Shown here piece after piece: positions 13,015 to 22,748 of a DNA stretch of 64,000 bases. Below the pieces are notes generated by a model. That model had not been told where the DNA came from. It made no database searches and worked only from the letters and a program-made list of their open reading frames with translations. The position numbers and the translations under genes are program-made. Position 1 is the stretch's first letter; each line of letters opens with the position of its first letter. The DNA comes from Pseudoxanthomonas sp. X-1 (GTDB taxonomy: Bacteria; Pseudomonadota; Gammaproteobacteria; Xanthomonadales; Xanthomonadaceae): NCBI RefSeq assembly GCF_020042665.1, contig NZ_CP083376.1:2950001-3014000 (forward strand), in the 5' to 3' direction.

Positions 13015-13372
13015 TTACAGAGCCATTTTCGAAAGCGTTTTTTTGGCCTCTTTCCTTACCCACGCCTTGGGATGGCTTTTTAGTAGCTCCACGCGATCGC
13101 GAGCCTGCTCAAAGTTTCCACCATCAGTTTTGCTACCTAGGCAGATATACCGCCCATCCAGATCAGTAAACCGATATGGGTCATTGTTGGCTTAAGAGAG
13201 ATTGCCACCGTTATAGACGGTGTTGCCGTTTTCCTGTAGCTAATAGGAAGAAGCGTTGCCGACAGCGCTCCACGAAACGGTGTAAGAACCCGTACTGCTC
13301 GAGCCCGGAGCACTGACGGCAGGCGCGCCCGATGGCGGCGTCGGTATCGTCAACGCGACCGGCGCGCCTGGA
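13015..13372 (-). pseudogene. Orphan Rhs C-terminal tip fused to an FN3 repeat fragment
   Basis: Read on the minus strand, 13194-13372 matches one FN3-like repeat of the long Rhs protein but contains in-frame stops. It runs straight into NNDPYRFTDLDGRYICLGS, a copy of the Rhs core end found in the intact short gene (NNPYRFTDPDGRYVCSGS). After the shared KTDGGNF the sequence diverges into a different tip of about 30 residues, ending at TAA 13015. No start codon or complete core remains. It is a displaced, inactivated toxin cassette. Confidence 0.75.
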
Positions 13373-13463
13373 TCGGATGCCAATCATGTCGCCGAAAAGA
13401 GGGGCTTGTTCAGAGGTTTCTTAGCTAACACTTGCGGGACCGTTACCCGGCAAGGGGCATCAC

Positions 13464-13853
13464 TCACTCATGCACTCTTGCATGAACTTCAAAGCTAACT
13501 GCTCGCCCGTCACTATCTAGCAACAGGCGGCCTTCGAAGGTGCCTTGTATCTGAGCATAGGGCTGTCCTCTGTTGGCGTACGCAAGCTCTTCCAATAGCA
13601 GGGCAGTTGATCTTCTGTATTGAGGCAAGTCTGAGAATACTGCTGCCAACACGTCAGACCCGTCAGGTTCGTCTACTAGATAGGCGCCATGGCGGGTTGA
13701 TATCAAGTAAGCGTTAATTTTGATGGAGCGGTTAGAACAAGTCTCTTTTCTCTCCTTGACATCTGATGCGGTTGAGCAAACTTCTTTGCCGGAATCAGCC
13801 GTCGCGTATCCCGGGAAAAGCGCGGCAAAAATCAATAGAGCTGTTGCCTTCAT
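13464..13853 (-). CDS. Small secreted hypothetical protein, candidate orphan immunity protein
   Basis: A 129-residue protein with a clear signal peptide (ending GYATA, about residue 20) and four cysteines in the mature N-terminal half or its border. I recognise no family. The ATG at 13853 is preferred over 13859 because AGGAG then sits 7 nt upstream. It starts 38 bp after the end of a decayed toxin fragment (13892-14250), the position expected of a cognate immunity gene. The immunity role is inferred only from position and periplasmic targeting. Confidence 0.6.
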   Translation of the reverse strand: MKATALLIFAALFPGYATADSGKEVCSTASDVKERKETCSNRSIKINAYLISTRHGAYLVDEPDGSDVLAAVFSDLPQYRRSTALLLEELAYANRGQPYAQIQGTFEGRLLLDSDGRAVSFEVHARVHE

Positions 13854-13891
13854 TCGCATGCTCCTGGCTCTTCGCAAACTGAATTCGTAGA

Positions 13892-14250
13892 TCAGTCTGC
13901 GCCTATGAGTATCGCATCAGAGTTGATCTCGCCACCTGGGTTCAATAGCCCATATGGATTGATCCGCGCGCCCTGATAAAAATTCGCCTCAGCCGTATAA
14001 ACTCTAATCTCACCAGTGTTGATCTCCTCACGCCTGTATGGATCTAGCCGTCACCACCCTTTCGACTCAGCTGCTGCACGCTCCTCGGGGGTACGCCTGT
14101 CCCGCGTCGTGAGGTGGCCAAAGGGGTCGGAACCTAAGCGCTCACTGGTCTTCTCGTCGGTCTCGGTGTCCATAGCAGCAGCCTACGGGCCATCGGCGCA
14201 CTGCTTCATGAAGGCGCACCTCATCTTCATCTCAGAGAGGGTTGCGGCAC
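13892..14250 (-). pseudogene. Decayed toxin-tip-like fragment with in-frame stops
   Basis: One continuous minus-strand frame reads through two stop codons, one of them a TGA at 14053-14051. The part from the ATG at 14173 would give about 94 codons, beginning MDTETDEKTSERLGSDPFGH and ending NPYGLLNPGGEINSDAILIG. The coherent, charged, non-repetitive sequence on both sides of the stop suggests former coding sequence. It precedes a small secreted protein gene, as toxin C-termini precede immunity genes. The family is not recognised. Confidence 0.5.
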
Positions 14251-14380
14251 GGCTTTTTAGGATGTCCGACTCTTATGCAGGACTCTGCATTTTTCACTTA
14301 GGATTACAAAAATTTATTTGCTGCAAGACATCCGCCGAAACTCTGCCAGTCAAAGCCTCGGAGCACGACACACATATCAG

Positions 14381-14646
14381 CTACCACACCTGATCGCTTA
14401 TAGATTTCTCTTCTATACTTCGATAATTGCCAAGAATTTGGCGAAAGAAGTAAAAAACTGCCAAACCAAGCCCAGCCCCCCACGCCGAAACAATTCCAAT
14501 GAATACTAACCACTGCAACACCCTGCTACCTGTCAGCAAAGTCAGTAAAACCCAAAACCGCCAAAGACCAGCGAGAGTAATGCTATAGATACGATCAACC
14601 AGAACAGTTTCGGCTTTTTTGTCTTACGATCAAAGAGAGTCTTCAT
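14381..14646 (-). CDS. Small membrane protein requiring a -1 frameshift at A AAA AAG
   Basis: The ATG at 14646 opens a 34-codon frame that ends at 14542. At codons 9-11 the sequence is ACA AAA AAG (heptamer A AAA AAG at 14620-14614), the canonical -1 slippery site. Slipping there enters a frame of 77 further residues with two hydrophobic segments and a charged tail, giving an 88-residue two-helix membrane protein. Alternatively one A was lost and the gene is a pseudogene. Its start overlaps the end of the upstream toxin-like fragment by 17 bp, as expected of an immunity gene. Confidence 0.5.
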
Positions 14647-15215
14647 TCCTTACTGCCCTCCCGAAGAGGCGGAGTGACCAAGGTCCATGTATATATTTTT
14701 CCACCACCGACCCTAGGTAACTACCCACTCCTGGCTTGAATCCAGCGGAAGCACTCCCCCCACTACTCCACTGTACAGCGCCACCAACGTCCAATGGAGT
14801 GCCGGTAGCCGTAACCGCTGTCGCCCGAGCGAAGGCCACATTTGACGTGGAAAATCCTGTTTCCAAGGGGCCGTTCTTCAAACCACCTTGAAAGTTCCCC
14901 GACGCAACAGCACCACCGCCTACAGACGGACCATCCCTAAGTTAGCTTGAAGATCAATCTGACCGGAGCTTAAATTCGCTACTACTCCCAAATCACCAAG
15001 AACAGTCAGTCCCAAAGGAGCTGTATTTGGCCCAATAGGTGTACCTAGCATGCCAGCTATGCCGACACTTACTACCACGTCATGTTGACTAACATAATTT
15101 CTCAGGTCCTGCTTGCCACTTTCGAACGCAGCCTTTCCTTCAGCACCAAGTGCCCTATCGAAAGCAACTGTTTTCTCCGCTACAAAGGTTAGCGCCTCAG
15201 CTTTTGCTACTTAAA
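14630..15215 (-). pseudogene. Decayed toxin C-terminal domain (frameshifted)
   Basis: Minus-strand coding-like sequence begins after an in-frame TAA at about 15211 with AKAEALTFVAEKTVAFDRAL. It continues to about 14935, then is interrupted by a stop. After a frameshift it resumes as DGPSVGGGAVASGNFQGG and runs to the stop at 14630. The Gly/Ala/Ser-rich, weakly hydrophobic composition is compatible with a toxin or glycine-zipper domain, but I cannot name it. It overlaps the start of the downstream small membrane protein, mimicking toxin-immunity organisation. 15216-15491 holds no supported gene. Confidence 0.5.
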
Positions 15216-15491
15216 CGATTTTTTTGCAAGGCCCGCAGTGATGCAGAATGCCGTCGCCGGCACCTGCATTATCTACAACAGGCTCACCATTTTCCACAAC
15301 TGCGCCCCGCATCACGACAGCTGGATGGAGGGGGTGACCAGGCAATTTATGTTGATAATTTGCGCGCGGCTGGCGCTCGCGCTGCATCTCTACGTGCCTA
15401 TAGTGCCGTGTAGCCGCGCACCGCCAACGAAGTGATGGAAGCACAACAAGGCCCGCAGCGCGGCCTTGTGCTTTCGCTTCACAAGCAAGCT

Positions 15492-15983
15492 CTATGGCAC
15501 ATCTTCGTAGCTAATGTAAGCGCGCCTATTTTGTGCTCGCCCATCTTCTGTCTCGTTACTGCTAATAGGCCTTGCACTACCCAAACCCTTTGGTGCAGAC
15601 AACCGAGACTTAGATACACCATGATTGAGCAACCAATCTTGCAAAGCTTGTGCTCTGCGTAGCGACAATTCAGAGCACGACAACCCGGAGCATTCTTCTG
15701 AGTCTGTAAATCCTAAAACTCTTAAGGGGACATCCGGCGGCATCCTTTTAAGGAGCGCAAGGTCATTCTCCAACGCTTCTTGATCGCGAGGGCCGGCCAC
15801 CGCTTCCAGCAACGCCTTGCCAGAAGCTGGCTGGCCAGTCTTGAAGTTGACGCCCCAGAAGTCGCCAGGATCAGCAAAATAACCTTCCTTGCTAACGGTA
15901 GCAGTAGATTCAAGATGGGACGAGCTTGCGCAAGCCGAGATCGCGGCCACGGCTAGGCAAACAAAGAACGATCGACCTTTCAT
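15492..15983 (-). CDS. OmpA-like domain lipoprotein, candidate immunity protein
   Basis: A 163-residue lipoprotein (signal then ISACASS) with a C-terminal OmpA-like peptidoglycan-binding region. That region includes VLGFTDSEECSG, the helix SLRRAQALQDWLLNHGV and the end motif GRAQNRRAYI. The ATG at 15983 shares ATGA with the stop of the upstream Rhs-tip gene and has GGGGAG about 7 nt upstream, so the two are translationally coupled. A gene directly coupled to a polymorphic toxin is usually its immunity gene. An OmpA-fold immunity protein would be unusual, so it may instead help anchor or deploy the toxin. Confidence 0.75.
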   Translation of the reverse strand: MKGRSFFVCLAVAAISACASSSHLESTATVSKEGYFADPGDFWGVNFKTGQPASGKALLEAVAGPRDQEALENDLALLKRMPPDVPLRVLGFTDSEECSGLSCSELSLRRAQALQDWLLNHGVSKSRLSAPKGLGSARPISSNETEDGRAQNRRAYISYEDVP

Positions 15984-16975
15984 CGGCAACTCCCCTCGCT
16001 CGAACCCGCGCAGGATGACATGACAGAGAAATTCGCTCTCGCATCAACCGCGTTTTCATTTATGCCATCGCCGGGATTCCAAGGTGCCCAAAGATTATTG
16101 GCATTCTGAAGAAAGCCCGTTGCCTTCTGGAAATAGGCCTCGGAGCGATACGCCGCCTGCTCTCTTCCGAATCGTTCCAACTTCGATCCTGGAAAGCCTT
16201 CTTGTACAATTCGAACCCCATGATCTCCCTCGTGCAGTGCTCTCATAGCAAGCCCGCTTATCAACCCTGACTCTCCAGGACTCTTTTTCCCGATGGCTGT
16301 TAAATCAAACTTGACGGTTCCTTTTCCTTCTCTATTTGTATTGATCAGGCCGTAGTCTCCTTTCAAATCACCAAATGAAACTTTGATGTCTGAATTCCCC
16401 TTCTCCCCAAAAAAATTCACAGCTGCGCTGAGCTGACCCCTTTGCCCTTCCGTGAGCTTTGAGCTAGTAGAAGCTGCTTTAGCCGCGTCAATTGCTTTGT
16501 CAAAGTTCCCACAATCAGTTTTGCTGCCTGAGCAGACATACCGTCCATCTGGATCAGTAAACCGATATGGGTTATTGCTAGCATACCAGTACCGATTGAA
16601 GTTGACGCCGGGCTTCGCGTAAGCAGTAACCGGATCGACGGACAGGAACAGTCCGATCATCGGGTCGTAATAGCGCTGCTGCATGTAGTTCATGCCCGTG
16701 GCAGCATCCAGGACATGCCCGGTGTATCCAGGGCCATCTGTGTCGGGTCGGTTGAGTAAATCGCCATATGGGGCGTACTCGCTACGCTCAATCACCTGCT
16801 GGCTGGCATTCGTGACCGCGATAGGGCTTCCCAACGCATCGGTGTGGATGTACTCGACCGTCTGAGCGTATGCCGGCACTCCAACGCAGGCACACCACAG
16901 CGCGAACATGAACCAGAGCAGCCGATTCGCGCCCCAACGGATCCTTGCGAAACTGCCTGTCGAATTACTATTCAT
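15980..16975 (-). CDS. Short secreted Rhs core protein with HExxH metallopeptidase-like toxin tip
   Basis: A 331-residue protein with its own signal peptide (residues 1-38, ending PAYAQ). Residues 39-145 are the Rhs-associated core: VEYIHTDALGSPIAVTNA, EYAPYGDLLN, YMQQRYYDPMIGLFLSVDP and NPYRFTDPDGRY. The variable tip (about 146-331) contains ALHEGDHGVR, an HExxH-type zinc site (His248, Glu249, His252), then EQAAYRSEAYFQK, which could supply the third Glu ligand. The ATG at 16975 lies 31 bp after the long Rhs gene ends, and its signal peptide decides the start. Inferred role: a secreted antibacterial zinc hydrolase toxin, with the core used for encapsulation or export. Confidence 0.8.
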   Translation of the reverse strand: MNSNSTGSFARIRWGANRLLWFMFALWCACVGVPAYAQTVEYIHTDALGSPIAVTNASQQVIERSEYAPYGDLLNRPDTDGPGYTGHVLDAATGMNYMQQRYYDPMIGLFLSVDPVTAYAKPGVNFNRYWYASNNPYRFTDPDGRYVCSGSKTDCGNFDKAIDAAKAASTSSKLTEGQRGQLSAAVNFFGEKGNSDIKVSFGDLKGDYGLINTNREGKGTVKFDLTAIGKKSPGESGLISGLAMRALHEGDHGVRIVQEGFPGSKLERFGREQAAYRSEAYFQKATGFLQNANNLWAPWNPGDGINENAVDARANFSVMSSCAGSSEGSCR

Positions 16976-17006
16976 TAATACGGATCCTTGACAGCTCGAA
17001 TTTGAT

Positions 17007-20000
17007 TCAGAACACCGCAGACCATGCCGAGCACCCGGTCGCATTGCAAGCGCGCACGCGGTACGTGGGATTGTTGGAGGGAGGATTGACCCCAACCTTC
17101 ACCGTGGACGCAGAGGTGTTCGGACCCGAGTAAGTGATGTAACCCTGAAGCTCATAGCTCGTGGCATTGGGAGCCGCATCCCACCAAGCCGTGTATTGCC
17201 AGCGTTTCCCGCCGGTATTAGTCAAATCCTGCTGCGTGTTGACAGGTGTTGGTGGGATCAACGCCACTGTGGTTGACGCGCTAGCGCTCCACGGGCCACA
17301 CCCGACGTTATTGCATGCTCGAGCCGTGTAAGCGTAAGTGCCGTTGCCGCGCCCACCGATTGCTAGGGCGAGATTGCCACCGCTGTAGACGGTGTTGCTG
17401 TTTTCCTGCAGCTCATAGGAAGAAGCGTTGCCGACCGCACTCCACGAAACAGTGTAGGACCCGGTGCTGCTCGAGCCGGGAGCGCTGACAGTGGGCGCAC
17501 CAGATGGCGGGGTCGGGATCGTCACCGCGACCGGCGCACCGGCGCTCCACGGTCCGCACCCGACGTTGTTGCATGCTCGGGCGGTGTAGGTGTAGTTGCC
17601 CGTCCCACGACCACTGATGCCAGCCGACAGGTTGCCCCCGCTGTAGACGGTACTCCCGTTCTCCTGTAGCTCATAGGAAGAAGCGTTGCCGACGGCGCTC
17701 CACGAAACGGTGTAAGAGCCTGTACTGCTTGAGCCCGGAGCACTGACGGCAGGCGCGCCCGACGGCGGCGTCGGGATCGTCACCGCCACGGTGGCCCCTG
17801 CGCTCCACGGCCCGCACCCGGCGCTATTACAGGCACGGGCGGTGTAGGTGTAGTTGCCCGTGCCACGCCCGCTGACCGAGGTCGATAGCCCGCCCCCGCT
17901 GTAAAGGCCGTTGCCGTTCTCTTTCACCTCATACGACGTGGCCGTATTCACCGACGTCCAGGAAATGGAATAGGCACCATTGCTGCTGTTCGCGGGCGCG
18001 CTGACGGCAGGAGCGGCCGAGGGCGCGCTGGGCAGCGTCACCGCAACGGTGGCTTCGTTGCTCCAGCCGCCGCAGGTACTGCCGGCGCATGCTTGCACCC
18101 GATAACTGTAGACACTGGTGCCCTTGCCGCTGGCGCCGTAGCTTGTGGCACTCCCGCTGTAGACCGTGGTCCATGCCCCGGTGCTACCGACCTTTTCCTG
18201 CAGGGTGTAGGTGATGGCGTCGGTGACCGCGGTCCAGCTGACCGTATAAACGCCGGTGCCATTCGAGGCGGGCACGCTGGTGGTCGCGGTGCCCACGCTC
18301 TGCACGTTAGTGATCCGCGCCACAAGGCTGCCGCCGAGATAGATGTATTCGTATCGGCGATTCGCGCGCTGGTTCTGCTGATAGCGCAGCACGCCGTCCT
18401 GGCCATAGAGCGAGTAGATGTTGCCATTTGAGGCGACCGATAACACGCGGCGCCCGCTGGCGTCGTAACGATAGGACTCCTTGTTCGGGACCGAGCGCAG
18501 ACGATTACCGTAGTCGAAGGCGTAGGTCTGACCGTTCTTGTTGGCCAGGTTGCCTTGCGCGTCGTAGCCCAACCCGATCACCGCGCTGCCGCTTCCGGCG
18601 TTGCTGACCGTTTCCAGCTGCTGCCTGGCGTTGTACGCATAGACGTAGTTGGACACCGCCCCGACCTTGAAGGTCTTGAGGTTGTCCAGTGCGTCATAGG
18701 TGAACGCAGCCTGGTTGTCGCCGCCGAACATCACCGATTGGGTGGTGGCCAGGCGATCCAGTCCGTCGTAGGTCATGCTGCGGGTCTGGCGGCCGTCCAC
18801 GTAGTCGGTGACCGCGCTGACGTTGCCGTTCGGGTCGAAACCGTAGGCCATGTCGATGACGGCGCCGCCGCCCGTGTCGGTGCTGCGCGCCGGCATCTGG
18901 CGAGCGTTCTGCGCCATGGTGTGGACCACACCATTGCCGTACGTGAACTGCTTGATCGCCCCGTTGGGGTAGTACGACACGCCCGTGGCGTAGGACCCCG
19001 CCTGCGTCGGCTGGCCCAGCGCGTTGGGGGCGTAGGACAGGGTCAGCCCGGAGGGATAGGTCTGGGTGGCAAGGTTGCCGTTGGCATCGTATCCGTACCC
19101 GATAGATAGCGCCGCGGCCTGGCCCGCCTGCGCCATACCTTCGCCGATGAGCTGGCGACGCGCGTTGTAGGTGTAGGTGTTGATGACACTTTCCGCCCCG
19201 CTTCCGGCATTGGCGGTGGTGACTTGGTAAGGCTTACCGTCCGGTGTATATGTCCAGGTCTGATTACCCCGTCCGTCCGGAAAACTCAACGTACTGAGCC
19301 GATTCCGAGCGTCGTAGGTACGCCCGACTTTTCGAGCGGAGACAGCCGTGCCGCTACCATCATCACAAGCCTGCGTCGCGGCCAAACCCGCGGCGGTCCA
19401 AGCCACGTTTCCAGCCAAGTCATAGCCGACCAGGGTTGCGCCGCTTTCCGGTTCCACGCTGCGACAAAGTTGCTGATAGCCGTTATAGATATAGCTGCGA
19501 GTGACGCTGACCGTATTTGAAACATCTCGCCGGGTAATTGCGGTGGGCTTGCCAAAGTCATCACGATTGATCTCAGTGATAGTGCCCTCGGCAGCCTCTA
19601 TCTTTATAGGAAGATCGTAGCTCGGCTGATCGTAAGCCTTGAATGAGGTGATCTTCACTCCGCCGCGCGGATCGGTAGTGCGCGTCTTGAAACCGCTCAA
19701 GTATGCAGTGGTGGCCACCTGGACACTTGGCGTCAGTTCGGTGTCCTGACCTACCGACGTCTCACGTCCCAACGCATCATAAGAAGTCCAGGAGCCAGTG
19801 GCCAAGCTATCTGTCGTCCCCGGATAAGAGGCAAAGGTGGTCCTGCCTTCGTGATCGTATGCGAATCGCCGGAAACGCTTGGTGGCAGTCTCATTCCCAT
19901 TGTCGTATTCCCGGGTCACGATCGGACGCCACAAGCTGTCGTAGTAAGCTACCTTCCGCGCGTTACCAGTCGAAACGGTCTGTCGCCAATGACCGGCCGC

Positions 20001-22267
20001 CAGTCCGAACTCGGCCATGCCAATCGGTTCAAACACCTGTGTCGTGGGATTCGCTGGTGCACCATCGCTTGGGTAACTGGTCGAGGCCAATCGCCCCGCC
20101 CCATCATAAGTAAAGATGTACTGGTAGCCGATTTCATCGGTATGACTGGTAATCCAGCCAGCGTCACTGACGACCGCCGAGCGTCCATTTCCATCAGCGT
20201 ACCCGACACTTTGCGGGATACCGCGCTTCCAGTTGGAGTAAGTTGTCGTGCGATTATTCGGGTCGGTCACCGTGGAAAGCATTCCACCCGTCCCGTATCC
20301 ATAGATGCCCGTCAGTCGGCCGAACGCATATGTCTTGGTCAACTGGCCCAGATTGTTGTACTCGCCAGCAGCGACAACCAGTCCGTTCCCCAGATTGGTG
20401 ACCGAAGCTGGCTGGTCCATCACCCAGATGGAAGGAAGATCCGAATAGATCGTTTTCTCCGTCACAGCAGCGGAAGGGCCACTGCGAGTTACCTGCGAAG
20501 GCCGTGCCATCGCATCGAAGGTCGTGGACCACGAAAAAGTGACGCCGTCTTGTTGAATAACCCTTTGTTTGACAGGGTGGTGGCGGCTCGCATAGCCACC
20601 GTCGCCTCGAGGCTGGATACTGAAGCCGATGCTTGTCGGATACGGCCCTTCGTCTGGCGCGCCATAGGCCACTGTTTCCGTACGAAGCGCCGCAGTGCCG
20701 GATATCGCAGTCTGCGTGGACAGCAGCTGTCCTTCATCGACCTGCCACCGATTGCCATAGACATGCTTGTCCACACTTCCGTCAGGATTGGTGACAGTTG
20801 CTGTCCGGACCGATGGTGTCGATGAAGTGCACTTGGGAGCACCGCTGGCGTTGGCCTGTACAGTCGCCGGATCCCAGCAGCCTGCCGTTCCATCGTAGCT
20901 GTATGTCCAGTTGTATCCCGCGCTTGGCAAGCCTGGTCCGTTGATACTCTTGGACACCAAGGCCATGACGAACGACTCTTTGGGATAGTACGCACTCGTC
21001 GGCGCACCATCCACGTAGAAGCACTCACGCGGCACCCACGTGCGCGACATGCGTACTGCCTGTAGTCCGAACGTGACCACCGCACCACTGGGATGCGTGA
21101 CGCTTCCGGTGGAAGTTCCACCGCCGTTCGTATTATCGCATTGCCCATTCTGCCCAGGCGTTCTGGAGACCAGGGATTGGAGATTGAACTTCCAGCTACT
21201 CTGATCGGGCAGAGTAACCTGACTCAGCGATATGGAAGAGGTATAGGTATAGGTCCATGTTCGCCCTGCACTGCTCGCCGACTGTATCTGATAGCCCGCA
21301 CTGTCAACGTAGGTAAAGCTTATGGAACGACCATCACTGCTGGTGATGGACTGCAACTGGTTGGGATTGGAAGAATTCCAGTTGTAGGTGACAGAGTTGC
21401 CGAATCTATCCGTTACCTGAGTGGGATAAATAATGTACTCATCTCGATACAAAATATACCCATTGATAGCCTGCGGAGTCACTCCGGTTGCCAGCCTGGC
21501 AGAAGCGGCCTGCGGAGCCGGCAATGATTTCTTCAGGGCCGAATGGGCACGGGTGACCATGTGGTCAAACCTGTAGTGCGTGCCATCCCGGGTCACGACC
21601 TCGAACCCCTCACCCACGGAAGGGTTACTGCCAACGGCGAGGTTGGCGACGCAAGATACCGCCGAACCATCCGCCAAGGTCAAAGGATATGCGCGACCAT
21701 CGGTCGGCATGGCGCTGGAGGGGTAACTTAAAAGTTCCTGGTCTCCTTTCCCGGGCAGGTAGACGAAAGTCCCCTGCCAGTACTCGGTTGCTGAAAAATC
21801 GCCCCCCTGCTGACCGACAGCATCCAAAGGAGCTTCATAGCTGGAACAACGCTTGCCATATACGGACGGAACACCGAACGCCCACTTGCTCCCCTGCGGA
21901 AACACTCCGTGAATACTGGGAATGGAGAGATCCCAGTCCCCGAAGAATCCCCGAAACCGTCGACTCCCTGACCCGCGCTCAGCCGGCGGGTAAGTTCGAC
22001 CGCCAAGCCTGAATTCCCAGGCACTGAAACATCTGTCTGAGTTAGACCGAGCGAACCGCTGTAGAGATTGACCTCGTCACCCACCAGACCAGTGTTTAAG
22101 CCCTTTACCTGCGAGGTGGCTGTCACCAGCTTGCCGAACTCTTCAGGGACCGTGACGGTCTGGGCATCGGCTCGCGCCATGACCGCCAGCGCTATCACCC
22201 TAGGTAGGAAAGAAAACAACGCTCGAGCGCAACACGACCTGAGGCCGGCACTTTGATTCGCACGCAT
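17007..22267 (-). pseudogene. Secreted RHS/YD-repeat protein with C-terminal FN3 repeats (frameshifted near the N-terminus)
   Basis: About 1750 codons. The ATG at 22267 (AGGGG 6 nt upstream) gives a signal peptide ending near ARADAQ, followed by an Rhs N-terminal region. Around 21925-21945 the frame breaks: the family motif GDWDLSIPSIHGVF continues in another frame, consistent with one lost base near TCGGGG. The second frame runs uninterrupted to 17007. It carries many YD repeats (for example YDALGRETS, YDANGNLATQTYPSG) and the pre-core RRYEYIYLGGSLVARI, then five FN3-like units. It stops before the usual YIHTDALG core, which is encoded by the next gene. If the frameshift is real the gene is broken; otherwise it is the toxin carrier. 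Confidence 0.8.
17010..18290 (-). repeat. Five tandem FN3-like repeats within the Rhs gene
   Basis: Units of about 258-261 bp (86-87 residues) with the shared pattern YTVSWSAVGNASSYELQEN, then YTYTARACN, then GCGPWSA. The middle three are nearly identical at DNA level; the first and last are diverged. A sixth, damaged copy lies outside the gene at 13194-13372. High identity suggests recent unequal recombination or gene conversion. Confidence 0.85.
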
Positions 22268-22625: not shown

Positions 22626-22706
22626 AAAAGAAAGGCCCCGCCAACGCTGCGGCGGAGCCTTGAGAATGACCTTGGTGCCGGAAACAGGAGTCGAACCTGC
22701 GACCTA
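22626..22706. repeat. Right attachment-type direct repeat (within tRNA-Thr)
   Basis: The 81-bp partner of 12774-12854. It spans the terminator hairpin (one arm mismatch relative to the left copy) and the 3' 34 nt of the intact tRNA-Thr gene. Confidence 0.85.
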
Positions 22707-22748
22707 CGCATTACGAATGCGCCGCTCTACCAACTGAGCTATTCCGGC
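22673..22748 (-). tRNA. tRNA-Thr (anticodon CGU)
   Basis: A 76-nt minus-strand gene starting GCCGGAATAGCTCAGTTGG and ending TTTCCGGCACCA, with encoded CCA. The anticodon loop reads TTCGTAA, giving CGU, which decodes ACG. Acceptor, D, anticodon and T arms all pair. Its 3' end is duplicated at the far end of the Rhs island. Confidence 0.95.

Follow-up and report, generated by a model that had tools for sequence, protein, structure and literature searches.

The window analysed here, a stretch of 64,000 nucleotides (nt) from Pseudoxanthomonas sp. X-1 (assembly GCF_020042665.1, contig NZ_CP083376.1, positions 2,950,001 to 3,014,000), harbours on its reverse strand a polymorphic toxin system of the Rhs family which is probably split into two proteins, namely a carrier forming the shell and a short, separately exported protein providing plug and toxin. 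According to the current view an Rhs shell closes around the toxin of its own chain. If plug and toxin come instead in a protein exported on its own, a shell could be filled in trans with different toxins, which would alter accounts of toxin diversity, exchange and self-protection. It would also provide a testable account of the Bcn-A system of Xanthomonas perforans, the accessory proteins of which had lacked an evident function, and a Sec plus type II export route for Rhs toxins in bacteria devoid of a type VI secretion system (T6SS). A search of open-access titles and abstracts yielded no description of an Rhs shell which is split before its core and accompanied by a separately exported core-toxin protein.

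Organisation of the locus

All features described in the following are encoded on the reverse strand. The main frame of the carrier (17007..22076; 1689 codons from stop to stop) contains the YD-repeat shell (PF05593, 5.2e-24) and, within it, an open reading frame (ORF) starting with GTG (17007-21905; 1632 amino acids (aa)). No Rhs core was found in this long frame, the C-terminal end of which consists of five FN3-like repeats (17010..18305). Exactly as given by an earlier sequence-only reading of the window, the carrier stop codon (TGA, 17009-17007) is followed after 31 nt by the ATG (16975) of a short gene (15980..16975) encoding 331 aa. Residues 1-37 of its product (16865..16975) constitute a likely signal peptide assigned by eye, signal peptides being assigned throughout by eye and by means of a hydropathy script. 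The subsequent Rhs core (16541..16855; Rhs_assc_core TIGR03696, 7.2e-19, with PF03527 under its cut-off) comprises the last shell strands, the plug and two DP autoprotease motifs, the aspartates of which are both retained. It leads into a variable tip (15983..16540), predicted to be a zinc metallopeptidase-like toxin on account of a weak fold match and an HExxH motif at about 16220-16234. The gene next to it (15492..15983), which shares an ATGA overlap with the toxin gene, encodes an OmpA-like lipoprotein and is the candidate immunity gene. Of the traits defining the Rhs family, the YD-repeat shell is thus present in the carrier, the core with its two DP motifs in the short protein and not in the carrier, while shell, core and tip do not form one polypeptide as they are encoded by separate genes.

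In the mechanism that we propose the carrier would contribute most of the YD shell, stop short of its last part and end in FN3 modules, while the short protein would add the shell strands still missing, together with the plug bearing the aspartyl autoprotease and with the toxin tip. Separate likely signal peptides on the two parts imply that both would pass the inner membrane via Sec; they would then assemble in the periplasm and exit via type II secretion, the gene following the short gene providing the immunity protein. With plug and toxin residing in a separate 1-kb gene, one shell might be loaded in trans with different toxins, and the cassettes might be exchanged and displaced, with both the FN3 repeats and the core acting as sites of recombination. 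The assembly of carrier and short protein, the loading in trans, the activity of the toxin and its entry into target cells are what we infer from this arrangement.

Recurrence of the split among Xanthomonadaceae

A search for the core in 395 genomes of Xanthomonadaceae gave matches in 267 of them. From the best matches listed we collected about 90 places with an open frame of at most 600 aa (counted by eye) and nine with longer frames, omitting eight at contig ends and adding eight stretches of the window genome. The classified set drawn from these loci comprises 90 core frames (the window, L017, L018 and L037-L107; L019-L024 and L108-L116 are outside the count). A script assigned 65 of them to exported short cores, 19 to fused proteins and six to frames cut by a contig end; reassignment by eye of two (L073 and L106) from exported to fused leaves 63 exported short cores. 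Directly behind an FN3-ended YD carrier lie 36 of these, four are the second member of an array behind such a carrier and a further eleven follow, at a distance of 0.6-11 kb, a carrier whose tail ends in LYQLLL. For one (L038) the preceding carrier frame ends 862 nt before the core, and for two the flanking sequence is too short to judge. Direct pairs are found, for instance, in Lysobacter enzymogenes (L120), Xanthomonas hortorum (L178), Pseudoxanthomonas mexicana (L154), Luteimonas aestuarii (L135) and Stenotrophomonas sp. HITSZ_GD (L129). These genomes overlap in part with those of the 63-core count, and we give no totals for such named loci because the classification script put several of them in a wrong class.

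The same picture emerges from the carrier side. The end of the carrier matches in 85 of 159 genomes searched, and 20 places at which the match covers the FN3 repeats were newly examined (G103, G138 and one contig-end place in G119, among others, were left out). Fourteen of the 20 turned out to be FN3-ended YD carriers, twelve of them being followed by an exported core 62-128 nt past the stop codon. The other six contain FN3-like frames with no YD match in the stretch examined, and core-bearing, fused-looking frames further on. Arrays of two or three cores exist; at one locus (L209) a single carrier precedes three exported cores in a row. The long FN3-ended Rhs gene followed by a short core gene with signal peptide, for which the sequence-only reading had proposed to look in relatives, hence recurs (36/63 from the core side, 12/14 from the carrier side), and among close relatives we encountered neither of the two outcomes which that reading had named as speaking against it, namely a continuous gene containing both FN3 repeats and core, or the split pair being confined to the window.

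In the homologues listed for the carrier, moreover, FN3 tail and core do not occur together. Among the best 120 of 2229 matches to the YD end of the carrier, a list which includes the window carrier itself and the second carrier of its genome, 88 have FN3 repeats and no core, 29 a core and no FN3 repeats, three neither and none both, as scored by BLAST against the FN3 repeats and core of the window. The three with neither possess the LYQLLL tail. Pfam calls no fn3 domain in the window carrier, and its precomputed column lists PF00041 for two of the 120 relatives. The nearest named homologue among the matches listed belongs to a Pseudoxanthomonas spadix assembly. An exception is met in a more distant relative, Tahibacter caeni (L137, 4285-6082), where FN3 repeats, core and a window-like tip are united in one frame in which no YD repeats were seen; this frame is a possible intermediate between the fused and the split form. 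We regard the split as a real, recurrent architecture and not as the product of one damaged gene.

Gene starts and position of the split

Gene starts were compared in 36 short genes which follow a frame ending in FN3 repeats (34 carriers and two FN3 fragments; an L039 pair and L104 are outside this set). With script-chosen starts, the gap between carrier and core ranges from -43 to +83 nt and amounts to exactly -4 in twelve of the 36; the start codon is ATG in 35 cases and GTG in one. The reading frame of the short gene relative to that of the carrier is mixed (22/8/6), which, together with the genes' own starts, rules out that the two products are joined by programmed frameshifting or by read-through. 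In fused relatives the segment ..YIYLGGSLVA.. leads via a short linker into ..YQHTDALG.., and since both are joined there, the split point can be assigned to this linker. The mean hydropathy of the most hydrophobic 11 residues preceding the core is 1.44-3.17 in the pairs versus 0.65-1.79 in 22 fused proteins, the two ranges overlapping slightly.

Exchange of tips and candidate immunity genes

The HExxH motif and a downstream Glu are invariant in 42 aligned proteins, which were chosen from the matches as those covering most of the query. The same core may carry different tips, as is evident from a comparison of the window short protein with its homologue P0013: 40 of 42 signal-peptide residues and 84 of 102 core residues are identical, versus 54 of 178 in the tip. 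A remnant of just this P0013 tip, comprising its last 63 residues (92% identical), lies in the window at 13853..14041. The short gene thus behaves as the swappable cassette that the sequence-only reading had proposed. Two further relics are present, namely one of another Rhs tip (14649..15234; three pieces resembling residues 1019-1214 of P0218) and one in which an FN3 piece precedes a core end and a tip (13021..13368) and whose FN3 part is about 90% identical to that of the carrier. Behind the P0013-tip relic an intact small ORF (13464..13877) with a likely signal peptide and no Pfam match is a candidate for a left-over immunity gene. Altogether, the segment 13021-15234, downstream of the candidate immunity gene, has the appearance of a graveyard of displaced cassettes. 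At two other loci (L039, L049) a displaced core follows an FN3 fragment, which suggests that FN3 repeats serve as recombination sites.

Tips and downstream genes are associated with each other. In a set of 71 tips and 68 downstream genes, in which exported and fused frames were pooled, 13 of 49 tip-linked pairs share a downstream gene family, compared with one of 2229 unlinked pairs. The OmpA-domain gene of the window is also the next gene in three relatives with a window-type tip. A variable tip with a putative cognate immunity gene, a further trait of the Rhs family, can be recognised from the same core bearing different tips and from this association of tip and downstream gene. At the level of sequence, the split and the likely export signals, the coupling of the genes, the swapping of tips and their association with candidate immunity genes are all apparent.

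Comparison with Bcn-A and other known systems

Bcn-A of Xanthomonas perforans appears to be an already published example of such a split locus. According to PMC7259588, killing requires ORFA (1398 aa, Rhs-like), ORF2 and ORF4, the last of which (290 aa) has a signal peptide and resembles WapA and RhsA. Without ORF3 the activity is only lowered, ORF5 confers immunity, and activity is abolished without xpsD, a type II secretion gene (PMC7259588). Large Rhs-like ORFA, short ORF4 with signal peptide and subsequent immunity gene ORF5 correspond to the coreless carrier, the short exported core and the candidate immunity gene of the window. Primers printed in that paper translate to LYQLLL and, immediately before ORF2, to TQDGTCT; both are also found in the LYQLLL carriers collected here. 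We read ORF4 as the core-toxin protein, comparing it by layout, description and primers only, because the two helix peptides of ORF4 given in PMC7259588 had no match among our collected proteins and loci. The systems differ in the carrier tail, which is LYQLLL in Bcn-A (as deduced from the primer) and five FN3 repeats in the window, and in the presence of ORF2 and ORF3 between carrier and ORF4, in place of which there are just 31 nt in the window. The combination of LYQLLL tail and two small intervening genes, absent in the window, occurs in L046 and L064, among others. At six loci (L046, L055, L058, L064, L067, L107) the space between the LYQLLL carrier and the short core is occupied by genes for one or two small proteins (about 105-140 aa) that look exported; their position is that of ORF2 and ORF3 of Bcn-A. 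That Rhs shells of Xanthomonadaceae consist of two to three Sec-exported chains, which assemble outside the cytoplasm, and that one shell takes up in trans any of several plug-toxin proteins of the same cell, with Bcn-A as the first studied example and its toxin residing in ORF4 rather than ORFA, appears to us about as probable as the opposite.

In the window genome GspD is present (549.8 bits, above the cut-off). VipB, the sheath protein of the T6SS, has no match in this single-contig genome while the Escherichia coli control was detected, which rules out a T6SS effector for this organism. By analogy with Bcn-A, the window system may use the type II route.

WapA of Gram-positive bacteria and the Rhs effectors of the T6SS share YD shell, core, polymorphic tip and immunity gene with the system described here; they differ in that they are made as one polypeptide, although fused relatives exist here too. 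Rhs orphan modules, displaced pieces of core, tip and immunity gene downstream of a full system, resemble the relics at 13021-15234. The short gene of the window, in contrast, has its own start, a likely signal peptide and a complete core, from which we take it to encode an exportable protein rather than to be a silent store.

The core matches the last approximately 105 residues of the TcdB2-TccC3, TccC2 and YenC2 chains as well as the cores of RhsA and Tse5; both DP motifs align in the printed alignments, all of which are to TcdB2-TccC3 chains. In the TcB/TcC pair of ABC toxins the shell is shared by two chains, the second of which has the Rhs core and a variable toxin, a likeness that here concerns the gene layout only. 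TccC2 (664 residues) and YenC2 (690 residues), however, hold several hundred shell residues before the core while the short protein has almost none, so that the division point of the window system is much closer to the C-terminus. Unlike TcB/TcC, the window system furthermore has likely signal peptides on both parts, an FN3 tail and a downstream candidate immunity gene. A Yersinia ABC toxin is reported to package three components encoded at distinct loci (PMC11067744), and bacterial teneurins are treated in PMC13018210.

A structure model of the short protein alone is confident for the tip and poor for the core. Fold searches with it returned weak matches, the best to an Rhs core (E 0.005) and another to the zinc peptidase 1g12 (E 0.1), so that the likeness of the tip to zinc peptidases is weak. 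For a fused relative (P0198) the predicted structure resembles the shells of Rhs proteins, teneurins and Tc toxins; it is confident for the shell and not for most of plug and tip, and its first core strands (791-816) run on from the shell. As models, the two neither prove nor exclude docking of the short protein to the carrier.

Frame change in the window carrier and further loci of the genome

The sequence-only reading had assumed a single continuous secreted carrier at 17007-22267. This does not hold, as the signal peptide and the first approximately 100 residues, starting with ATG at 22267, are encoded in a frame (21728..22267) other than that of the YD repeats, which is open from 22076; the frame change is located at about 21950-21976. 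In BLAST searches with each frame alone, an intact relative (P0124) is matched over its residues 1-105 by the signal-peptide frame and from residue 75 onward by the YD frame, and both pieces are matched by 67 of the 120 listed homologues. Either the window carrier is disrupted or the assembly contains an error there. If it is frameshifted, the short protein would depend on an intact carrier elsewhere, such as that at 935-939 kb of the genome, or lie idle. Hence, the recurrent split and the swappable cassette of the sequence-only reading stand, while its intact local carrier does not.

The carrier at 935-939 kb is 90% identical to that of the window over 427 residues of the searched carrier end. 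The genome has a total of three exported cores (in the window, at 939 kb and at 1268 kb) as against two coreless carriers; a further Rhs gene, of 1587 aa, is continuous. The second locus (L017 3081-9835, about 933-940 kb) encodes a 647-aa YD protein, a 1270-aa YD-FN3 protein, a short core protein and a 157-aa protein, and by eye each of its three parts has a likely signal peptide, the shell itself being in two pieces. Such two-part shells, the second part of which has its own signal peptide, were seen in seven cases (L017, L041, L107, L108, L110 and twice in L112), both with and without a separate core.

Weighing of alternative explanations

That carrier and short protein are one gene interrupted by a stop codon would be in keeping with the frequency of fused YD-core genes (19 of 90 core frames by script plus the two reassigned by eye) and with the single frame of Tahibacter caeni L137. 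Yet many genomes show the same division, FN3 tail on one side and a separate start plus signal peptide on the other, and the fused homologues have no FN3 tail; the recurrence and the mutual exclusion of FN3 repeats and core in the 120 listed homologues rule out a single gene damaged at this boundary, and we consider such an origin extremely improbable. A more substantial alternative, though in our judgement still an unlikely one, is that the short protein is an exported toxin working alone, with the core as a leftover and the carrier serving another role. Nine of the 63 exported cores, for which no carrier is found within the 5-9 kb examined upstream, are in its favour, as are two short exported cores from outside the searched family (Mizugakiibacter sediminis, L131 and L172) whose 7.5 kb of upstream sequence contain no YD carrier. 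It is at odds with the retention of shell strands and both protease motifs in the core, with the 36 cores located directly behind a carrier and with the requirement of the Rhs-like ORFA for killing by Bcn-A (PMC7259588). Moreover, if an exported core counts as lone when the 5 kb or more preceding it contain no carrier, all eight genomes containing such a core (G000, G003, G046, G098, G145, G202, G252, G350) also hold a coreless carrier elsewhere, that of G202 being of the LYQLLL kind. The third alternative concerns the window only: the locus may be decaying, a frameshifted carrier lying beside displaced cassettes and the short gene being idle or served by the carrier at 935-939 kb. The frame change, the three downstream relics and the close similarity of the other carrier point in this direction; apart from the frame change, carrier, short gene and OmpA-like gene are all open, however, and a sequencing error could account for that change. 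We rate decay a little below an even chance, and it would be compatible with a split system as the best explanation for the family.

Several observations weigh against the split system assembled from carrier and plug-toxin protein. Apart from the nine cores lacking a nearby carrier, no FN3-tailed carrier was found by the genome search in G332, where the core is close to a contig end, and two of the 14 newly examined carriers (L211, L217) have no core in the 4-4.8 kb downstream; L217 lies in G350, an exported core of which (L099) is about 21 kb away. No shared immunity family is detectable for 36 of the 49 tip-linked pairs. The shell gene of the window appears to be broken by the frameshift. 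The poor core in the model of the short protein also has to be counted here, although it does not discriminate between the readings. With respect to Bcn-A, the authors regard ORFA as the toxin, ascribe secondary roles to ORF2-4 and describe the ORFA product as having no signal sequence (PMC7259588); the latter counts against our interpretation unless the start of ORFA was set too far downstream. Finally, the ORF2 required in Bcn-A, as described there, has no counterpart in the window.

Neighbouring features

The exported short core at about 1268 kb of the window genome (L018 6132-7477) has no carrier in the 6 kb upstream. By eye, it is located behind two genes resembling pilus retraction ATPases and is followed by a 141-aa lipoprotein-like gene. 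In the window, a tRNA-Thr gene at 22673-22748, upstream of the carrier, marks a possible island boundary.

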